A program made the position numbers and the translations under genes. From positions 1,941,496 to 2,005,495 of the forward strand of contig NW_020289975.1 in NCBI RefSeq assembly GCF_003144245.1: 64,000 nucleotides of DNA, written 5' to 3'. The notes under the pieces were generated by a model that made no database searches, had not been told where the DNA came from, and saw nothing but the letters and a program-made list of their open reading frames with translations. This stretch comes from Jaminaea rosea (Eukaryota; Basidiomycota; Exobasidiomycetes; Microstromatales). Shown here in pieces: positions 27,038-57,260 of this stretch. Positions within the stretch are counted from its first letter, which is position 1; every line of letters begins with the position of its first letter.

Positions 27038-27435
27038 ATGCTTTGCCTCACACACCTCGTTCAAACCCTCTGGCTCGCGGCCGTGGCTGGCCTGCTTCTC
27101 TGTTGCACACCCATCAAAGCCGATTTCATTGGCATGTGCTGCCCGCAGTCGGGCTGTACTGGACGATGCCAATCCGTTAGCGGCAAAAGGGCCGGATCCA
27201 ATCCTATCACTCTACCTTTGTGCACGAGCTTCAAGCCTCGATTCAAGATGACCGAAGTATGCAGCCACGCGGACTGTTCGAATGGATGTCTCGATGGCGT
27301 CACGAATCCCAATCAGTGCATCTCTCCTAGTAAGTACGAGCGCTTTGGACACCGCTTCTCCCGTAGCTGACAGTCGGAATGTCGCGCTGTGACTGGTACG
27401 TAGAGTTGTCGAGTATTGGCTGCGTCATTTTCTGA
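27038..27435 (+). CDS. Small secreted cysteine-rich protein, paralog A
   Basis: Two exons, 27038-27329 and 27404-27435, encode 107 residues. The signal peptide (LVQTLWLAAVAGLLLCC core) ends near IKA. The mature part begins DFIGMCCPQSGCTGRC and carries ten cysteines. It shares with paralogs B and C the frame I-G-x-C-C, C-x3-C, C-x-S-F, V-C-x4-C-x3-G-C, Q-C and a final G-C-V-I-F. The last nine residues and stop come from a tiny second exon; the intron lies in the same place and phase as in B and C. I do not recognise the family. Size, secretion and Cys content suggest an effector or surface protein. If the intron were retained the frame would stay open to 27370 and the final cysteine would be lost. 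Confidence 0.8.
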
Positions 27436-28061
27436 GCTCGGCAAGACTGGTGCTGACAGTCCATGGTGCGAGGCAGGTTCGGCGCGTGGCAGTGTGACGT
27501 CCTCGCTACACATCAGCGCCATGTAAGAGAGCAAGAGCAAGCTCTCTGTCATCGCCCCATTTACTTTCGCTCATCTTTTCTTCCAGAAGCATTGTGACCA
27601 AGCTCTTCTATCTTCGTGCATAGCACAAGGTCAAGCCACTTCAACGCCGATGCTTTGCTGTGGTTGCGAGGATTTGTCCTTCTGCACTTGGCTGATGCCC
27701 AGGCTATCGCTCAGCTCAGCATTGCGCATACGACGGTGGCGAGAGTACTTGGGGAGATTAGGACAAGGGTCTAGGGGCAGGACAAGGTCACAAAGGAAGG
27801 GGCCGTCGGAGCATCGCGTCTCCGAGGTCTGCGGGCCGCAAGTGGCGAAGCGGCATGATTTCGACGTTATCACGATATCAGGCGGGCGGCGGGCCGTGGT
27901 GGCAGTGTTGTTCCGTGGCCGAGAGGGCCGATATCGACAGTGAGCGCTTGGATACTGTAGCCCAAAAGAGCGCCTGTCTGGACGACTCCCCGATTCTCTC
28001 CTCTTCGCACATCAACAGCTCTCACAACCATCGGAGATATCCATAATAGTTGAACAAAGTC
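27436..28061. other. Intergenic between paralogs A and B
   Basis: No gene or degenerate copy of the family is visible on either strand. Confidence 0.6.
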
Positions 28062-28453
28062 ATGCTCTTCATCGTCAAGCGCAGCAAGACGGCCTGGCTG
28101 TCGATCATGAGCATACTGCTCGTCACCTCTTCAGTCCTCGGCGAGACCATCGGCAACTGCTGCCCTCAAAGCCAATGCGGGGGAACTTGTCAGCCGGTCG
28201 AAGGATCGCGTACGGCGTCCAATCCCATCCTGGCATCGTGCCCAAGCTTCAAAGCAAGCTTCACAGTCAAGAAAGTGTGCTCCGCTGTGGACTGTGCAGC
28301 CGGGTGTGTCGCTGTCAATGTCGGCCCTGGACAGTGCCTGTCTCCTCGTGCGTATGGGTTTGCAGATCTTGGCAGTCGCTCTTGCTGACCATATAATTGT
28401 CGGATACTCACCTTCTGCCAGGCCTGCCGTCCATTGCTTGCATCATCTTCTAA
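28062..28453 (+). CDS. Small secreted cysteine-rich protein, paralog B
   Basis: Two exons, 28062-28347 and 28422-28453, encode 105 residues. After the signal peptide (WLSIMSILLVTSSVLG) the mature protein starts ETIGNCCPQSQCGGTCQ. It has the same ten cysteines as paralog A, with PSFKASF and VCSAVDCAAGC blocks and the end LPSIACIIF. It is closest to paralog A: both share CCPQS, the SNPI block and a 32-base last exon, and both introns are exactly 74 bases. The donor is GTGCGT, unusual for this window. The start is the first ATG before the hydrophobic stretch. Function unknown. Confidence 0.8.
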
Positions 28454-29217
28454 GCCTGATGGCACGGTAGATGGGTCGGCCGCAGGGTCGTGGGTGACGA
28501 TGCCTCTCTCAGTGGCGACAGTATACGCGTCACGGTCGAAGCTCAGCTCCTCGCAGTCTCTATGTGTGCGTCATTTCAATCGTGCTCTCGCCGCCACTTC
28601 TTGTGACTTTGTCACTGTGATCAAGCTGGCACCTCGTACACATGATGAATCAATCATCCACCTTTGCTGTCACTCAGGCCTCCTACTGTGTCGCTCGAGA
28701 TGTGGATACAGCATCGTAAGTGCACTAGCGCACAGATCAGAGGTGCTCATCGGTGATGGTACCCTTGAGGATTTTTGTTTTCACATTGTCTCTACCCAGC
28801 GGAGCGCGGCGTTGGCTATGCCAACCGTACGAGATATCCTCGTGGGCTGGGGGCGCTCGAGTGCATGGACTGCCTAGGCCCTCGGGGCCATTCTCCGGTG
28901 AGTCCTAGAAACGTTGACTCAAGGGCGCAATAGCAAGAAGCAGGCCGAGCACTACACCGCCTTGACCCGCTTGAGACGCTCATCCGGCCAGTCTTCAACA
29001 CTCCACTGGGCGTGGGGCTGTCGACCAAAGCTACCGGCCAATCGACGGGCGTGACACGGATTGGCGGCGCCAGTCAACGGGCAGATCAACTTTGCTGGGT
29101 GGCTGTGAGAGATGTCAAGTAAGCCGCAGGTCTCTGCCATCCTCACTCCTTTCTTTCACGGCTCTCGCAATCTGAAAGCAAGCAACCAACTGAAAGTGAG
29201 GACCTCAGACCGCCACG
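28454..29217. other. Intergenic between paralogs B and C
   Basis: The longest spacer in the tandem array. I looked for a broken fourth copy and found no IGxCC or DCxxGC remnant. Confidence 0.6.
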
Positions 29218-29570
29218 ATGCACCTCGTGTACAATCTCAAGACTGTTGGCCTCGTCACCGGTCTCCTCATGATCGACCTCGCCTCTGCTGCACTCATTGG
29301 CAATTGTTGCTCTGTTGGTCACTGCAACGCCAGCTGCACTGGCGTTGAAGGTCAAGCGGGCATGAATCCCACTGGCACATGCATGAGCTTTCAAGCCACG
29401 ACTCACATCAAAGCCGCATGCGCTGATCCGAGTTGCAAGCAGTGCGTCTCCGTCGCAAGCACTGGCTGTATGACAGCAAGTGAGTCCAACGGCTGTCGTC
29501 CGGGCCTGATGGCCGAGCTGAACCTCGATTTTTCGTTCTAGACCTGCCTCTCAAGTGCGTCGTTGTTTAA
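29218..29570 (+). CDS. Small secreted cysteine-rich protein, paralog C
   Basis: Two exons, 29218-29479 and 29542-29570, encode 96 residues. The signal peptide (VGLVTGLLMIDLASA) is followed by ALIGNCCSVGHCNASCTG. Ten cysteines align with A and B, including TCMSF, ACADPSCKQC, GCMTA and a final KCVVV. The last coding exon is 29 bases, one codon shorter than in A and B, but the intron phase and place are the same. It is more diverged than A and B are from each other, with shorter inter-cysteine loops. Function unknown; secretion is inferred from the signal peptide. Confidence 0.78.
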
Positions 29571-56847: not shown

Positions 56848-57260
56848 TCACGTCGTGATGACGCACTTGACCTCCCGCGTCCCGGATAAAGCCACGCAAT
56901 CAGCGCCAGCCCAATACTTCCTCTCACAGCCCTGGCTGCAGTCCGAAACAGAGCATGCTTCTTGGAGGGGATGAAAGGTAATGAAGGACGTGCAGCTCGA
57001 AGTGATGCTTGAAGCCCCTCGCCGGTTGCCCTTCACCGTCTGGTAGATACCATTACAGTCGCGACTGGTGGTGTAGCATCGTCTGGTGAAGAGGCGTAAA
57101 GCCGGAGTGGCGAACGTCAGCCCAGGTGCTTGATGACCGCTCGTTGAGTCGGGGAGGCGACGTACCCAATAGCAACGATATCGCCAAGGACAAGACAAAC
57201 GAATTCGAGACTGAGGCCCGTCAGGAGGCCAAAGTTCTTGAGCAGAGCGGTGAGGCGCAT
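56848..57260 (-). CDS. Small secreted cysteine-rich protein, paralog D (unlinked copy)
   Basis: Two exons on the minus strand, 57260-57166 and 57082-56848, encode 109 residues. The signal peptide (LKNFGLLTGLSLEFVCLVLG) is followed by DIVAIGRCYTTSRDCNGIY. The later blocks SCTSF, ACSVSDCSQGC and KCVITT align with paralogs A-C at 27-29.6 kb. It has eight cysteines, not ten: the second Cys of the CC pair and the fourth Cys are both Tyr. The intron lies in the Gly codon of the IGxC motif in phase 2, not near the 3' end. It sits alone between HAP5-like and GDH2, ~27 kb from the tandem array. Function unknown. Confidence 0.75.

Follow-up and report, generated by a model that had tools for sequence, protein, structure and literature searches.

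The yeast killer toxin WmKT contains ten cysteines paired in five disulfides. Also named HM-1, it is secreted by Cyberlindnera (Williopsis) mrakii and is described as an all-beta protein, 88 residues long when mature, that reportedly inhibits glucan synthase and binds mannoproteins (available text of PMC12715866). Its fold is that of the beta-gamma-crystallins, and beta-gamma-crystallin/WmKT is among the folds present in the orphan candidate effectors of more than 80% of 20 fungal species (available text of PMC10462633). In rusts, fused yeast killer toxin-like domains have been described, in an Ecp2/PF14856 cluster (available text of PMC9816061). Here a family of small secreted cysteine-rich proteins with a similar predicted fold is described in Jaminaea rosea (Ustilaginomycotina, Exobasidiomycetes, Microstromatales), a species named among phylloplane fungi in the available text of PMC7766764. 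The family includes three tandem genes, g1, g2 and g3, in a window of 64,000 nucleotides (C1:1941496-2005495) of the 16.6 Mb, 21-contig assembly.

Three tandem genes and a dispersed family

Each of the three genes lies on the plus strand and has two exons. Exon 1, encoding a signal peptide (assigned by eye) and cysteines I-IX, spans 27038..27329 in g1, 28062..28347 in g2 and 29218..29479 in g3. It is followed by a GT-AG, phase-1 intron of 74 (27330..27403), 74 (28348..28421) and 62 bases (29480..29541), respectively, slightly upstream of the last cysteine. Exon 2 measures 32 (27404..27435), 32 (28422..28453) and 29 bases (29542..29570) including the stop, and supplies cysteine X within GCVIF, ACIIF and KCVVV. 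The g1 intron occupies the same place as that in two annotated public J. rosea paralogues, P0005 and P0006. All three genes splice in frame to give proteins of 107, 105 and 96 residues, each with ten cysteines downstream of a hydrophobic leader (judged by eye; the g1 leader holds three further cysteines). The first-pass annotation of this DNA, which had read here three tandem genes with a common order of ten cysteines and a tiny last exon behind an intron of common place and phase, was therefore borne out. The likeness of g1-g3 exceeds chance, since in whole-genome searches g1 matched g2 at E 2.4e-15 and g3 matched another paralogue at E 6.8e-9, and since synonymous differences between g1 and g2 are far denser than non-synonymous ones.

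Copies were gathered by single-protein whole-genome searches and by a profile run on the retrieved DNA, and the family count is a lower bound: at least 38 domain copies in 36 apparent genes (a whole-gene model was made for part of the 38 copies) on seven contigs, with 14 copies on C14, ten on C1, seven on C8, three on C3, two on C16 and one each on C6 and C19. Beyond g1-g3 these comprise a fourth member inside the window, W4 (57260-56848, minus strand), whose domain was matched in the genome searches, and 32 additional apparent genes outside it. The family is larger and older than first reported. The whole-genome search gave one more match, containing stops, at C3:1117566-1117760. About 3 kb before the window, at C1:1938881-1938273 on the minus strand, a family copy lies in two separate frames, reflecting either an intron that went undetected or decay of the gene; it was excluded from the 38. 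A subtelomeric position of the C14 cluster, 10-17 kb from the contig start, was considered and rejected, the first 1500 bases holding two TTAGGG and no array.

The ten-cysteine description holds for g1-g3 and is too narrow for the family as a whole. In the 38-row alignment, eight core cysteines are all present in 33 rows, the other five lacking VI (A3), I and V (E8), X (F7), I (K) or VIII (J3). Cysteines II and IV occur together in six rows of a 29-row alignment, namely g1-g3 and three genes at C1:1.863-1.866 Mb; one row has II without IV, one has a cysteine at position IV without II, and 21 have neither. Because the two are mostly present or missing jointly, a putative accessory disulfide between II and IV fits the alignment. 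A I-V disulfide would also fit, its basis being the single row E8 (the public protein P0005), where both are lost, while K keeps V without I. Another member, J2, has ten cysteines in a different arrangement.

None of g1, g2 and g3 matched a Pfam family at E <= 10. For the 38 copies, a scan at the same threshold listed 13 families (most matches above 0.1 being removed by the program's filters), and hydrophobin, CFEM, cerato-platanin, KP4 and KP6/Hce2 were not among them, in agreement with the earlier exclusion of the first three. Hydrophobins have two CC pairs, whereas here a CC pair occurs in 7/38 copies and is located at cysteines I-II. These comparisons bear on the idea that the proteins are surface-active or wall-associated structural components, forming a coat on the cells and helping them to attach to leaves. 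Surface activity is known from other families of small, cysteine-rich secreted proteins, such as hydrophobins, cerato-platanins and HFS (available text of PMC8596622), and in one member, at C8:436599-435754 on the minus strand, the domain lies behind a proline-rich stretch, within an open frame of 851 residues, unlike the small members. However, the cysteine pattern differs from those given for hydrophobins (C-CC-C-C-CC-C) and HFS (C-CXXXC-C-C-C-C-C) in the available text of PMC8596622, and diversification across about 36 genes would be unusual for a structural coat. A role of this kind appears unlikely.

Splicing, age and selection

Within the C-[VIL] group of 23 domains, 20 allow a model with a phase-1 intron slightly ahead of the last cysteine, namely g1-g3, P0005, P0006 and 15 further domains (the donor of E1 being weak). 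The remainder are W4 and D1, which read through without an intron, and E2, which is ambiguous. Among the 15 members outside this group, the frame runs uninterrupted to a last cysteine (for example YCP, YCF and WCG) in 14, and in F7 no last cysteine was found. Since splice models were selected partly for yielding the last cysteine, they are not independent tests, and independent support for splicing comes from P0005 and P0006, which have the junction at the identical place and both map exon by exon to C14. The P0006 sequence equals the domain modelled before the public sequence was compared, and the P0005 junction coincides with the modelled position. Two further public J. rosea proteins, P0001 and P0003, are read without interruption from C14 and C8, respectively.

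The W4 gene, read by eye on the minus strand, has its intron (57083..57165) at the glycine preceding cysteine I. Exon 1 (57166..57260) would encode a signal peptide (by eye) through AIG, and exon 2 (56848..57082) all eight core cysteines, the last of them in KCVITT, and the stop, with no intron ahead of cysteine X. At C14:10.2-15.0 kb, also on the minus strand, three paralogues apparently have, at the glycine preceding cysteine I, an intron of the GC-AG type with GCGAGT as donor; P0006, the fourth gene of that group, has a GT donor at this intron. A gene modelled at C1:1872.6-1874.4 kb joins three domains, each split by the same last-cysteine intron, in one 508-residue precursor. Of its five dibasic sites, four fall outside the domains, with each linker and the stretch behind domain 3 represented, and one falls inside domain 2; as indications of cleavage such sites would not be telling by themselves.

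Synonymous and non-synonymous differences were counted for seven pairs. Purifying selection has acted between g1 and g2 (proportions of synonymous and non-synonymous differences, pS and pN, 0.74 and 0.35; 54% identity over 67 codons). For g1-g3, g2-g3, g3-A2, A2-A3 and D2-D3, pS was 0.83, 0.83, 0.82, 0.71 and 0.75, and the closest pair, on C16, had a pS of 0.59 and a pN of 0.17. Since values near 0.75 represent saturation, ages and ratios cannot be measured from them; the pairs look like old, constrained duplicates. In the tree, where good support was obtained for 7 of 35 inner branches, g1 and g2 form a pair (support 95/93) and g3 joins A2/A3, about 105 kb away, with moderate support (86/77). 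The recent tandem expansion proposed in the first-pass annotation is rejected, given the near-saturated synonymous sites and the position of g3 apart from g1 and g2.

Relatives and predicted fold

A single-sequence database search with g2 gave no match, and the public set covered, at protein lengths of about 58 to 184 residues, did not yield g2, which suggests that families of this kind may be undercounted. Two profile searches returned four (E <= 0.1) and five proteins (E <= 1), six in all: P0001, P0003, P0005 and P0006 of J. rosea, and P0002 and P0004 from a metagenome source. The metagenome proteins differ from two C8 genes at 3/101 and 6/107 positions, so another strain or a sister species may exist and serve for selection tests. 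The relatives that came up were thus confined to J. rosea and a source nearly identical to it, within a word-based search that requires shared five-residue words and that distant relatives outside J. rosea could escape; this supports the earlier proposal of an unnamed secreted cysteine-rich family. No account of the family was noticed in the literature text available to the searches, and the available text of PMC9632046 lacks the word 'crystallin'. The cyanovirin-N label carried by P0003 (BDZ90DRAFT_260819; UniRef name) was rejected, this protein matching no Pfam family at E <= 10.

According to structure prediction, the domain probably adopts a compact, wholly beta-stranded fold containing two Greek-key motifs, resembling beta-gamma-crystallins and, as described in print, WmKT. 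Four disulfides would hold it together, and the ten-cysteine subtype would have II-IV as a fifth. WmKT itself, a small secreted all-beta protein of crystallin fold with ten cysteines and five disulfides, would be alike in these respects. The crystallin-like orphan candidate effectors in the available text of PMC10462633 likewise combine a predicted double Greek key with secretion; they were surveyed across 20 fungal genomes, whereas here about 36 genes of a single species share an eight-cysteine core.

Several results weigh against this prediction. Crystall_2 matched one of the 38 members, at E 0.11 and 12.8 bits against a cut-off of 25, and neither Crystall nor Crystall_2 exceeded its cut-off in any of them. 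The calcium clamp [ND][ND]xx[ST]S, a beta-gamma-crystallin motif that is missing in some true members, occurs in 0/38 copies (shuffled mean 0.2); the Abundant Perithecial Protein of Neurospora crassa (PDB 5z6e, 5z6d) differs here, the title of 5z6e naming calcium. The WmKT Pfam model was unmatched in the 38 members, the yeast killer toxin model being absent from the 13 families listed at E <= 10, and no PDB sequence matched the 18-row or the 38-row profile at E <= 10. WmKT (1WKT) was not among the structural matches listed, which proves nothing. Finally, the plant defensin-like SLR1-BP model gave weak matches in 8/38 members (best E 0.00049, 20.9 bits, cut-off 22.7). Because the Pfam crystallin models fail, the calcium motif is absent, the likeness to WmKT is drawn from print and SLR1-BP is weakly matched, the fold is described as predicted to be crystallin-like and the family is not filed as a member of the beta-gamma-crystallins. 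Viral relatives suggested by predicted structure were rejected, none of 46 matches at E <= 10 reaching 0.001.

The SLR1-BP matches point instead to cysteine-stabilised alpha-beta (CS-alpha-beta), defensin-like peptides, in which the second half of the domain would be a defensin fold acting on membranes or channels. The spacing over cysteines V-X is alike in the SLR1-BP pollen coat proteins and the family, one member each was matched by two further models of the defensin type (E 0.045 and 0.05), and a first 13-row profile matched scorpion alpha-KTx (E 0.01) and noxiustoxin (E 0.38). However, no match reached the cut-off wherever scores were shown, and the PDB matches did not recur with the larger profiles. 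C-x-C is present in 2/38 copies, and the VII-VIII spacing, three residues in 21/37, is two in 14/37, where C-x2-C replaces C-x3-C and the helix spacing is lost. The predicted model, moreover, has beta structure and no helix in the second half. The CS-alpha-beta fold was rejected on the two cysteine spacings and the missing PDB matches, and a defensin-like identity is very unlikely.

Possible roles on the leaf surface

With the crystallin-like fold as the preferred structure, the family is tentatively explained as a whole as old, dispersed and highly diverged secreted disulfide-rich proteins with a microbe-directed role. Since the predicted shape also occurs in a yeast killer toxin, the proteins may be directed at other microbes instead of contributing to plant disease. 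In such a scheme the proteins would be exported, withstand proteases at the leaf surface and, once bound to the wall components of rival microbes, impair those components, while paralogues would have diversified towards different targets. On the strength of fold, secretion, the many diverged copies and a leaf-surface lifestyle, antagonism against microbes is the likeliest single role, although taken by itself it is possible rather than probable. It is doubtful whether the fuller picture applies, in which a leaf yeast with no known pathogenicity would defend its niche with about 36 killer-toxin-like proteins of crystallin fold, including a three-domain precursor perhaps cut at its dibasic sites.

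The genes are also small, secreted, cysteine-rich, clustered and divergent, and belong to a smut subphylum, as might be expected of plant-directed apoplastic effectors that act on leaf tissue or suppress defence in an unrecognised plant-associated phase. To our knowledge, neither pathogenicity nor host-induced expression has been described in J. rosea. The species forms filaments on Tween40, and lipids or hydrophobicity are suggested as possible signals of arrival on a host surface, but the same available text presents it as a phylloplane fungus (PMC7766764). Nor did the Pfam scans match any named effector family. The effector label of the first-pass annotation was not demonstrated, and a plant-directed function is considered rather unlikely; for tandem cysteine-rich genes in Ustilaginomycotina, that label should not be the default. 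If the crystallin-like fold and the microbe-directed role are true, effector-like expansions can serve competition between microbes in a smut relative that is not known to be pathogenic, and the family would be a rich source of natural variants on a killer-toxin-like scaffold.

Beside the g1-g3 cluster, at 30597-30081 of the window on the minus strand, lies a three-exon gene (read by eye) for an unrelated secreted protein of 117 residues. It matches no Pfam family at E <= 1 and contains a lysine-arginine site behind the leader and five cysteines.
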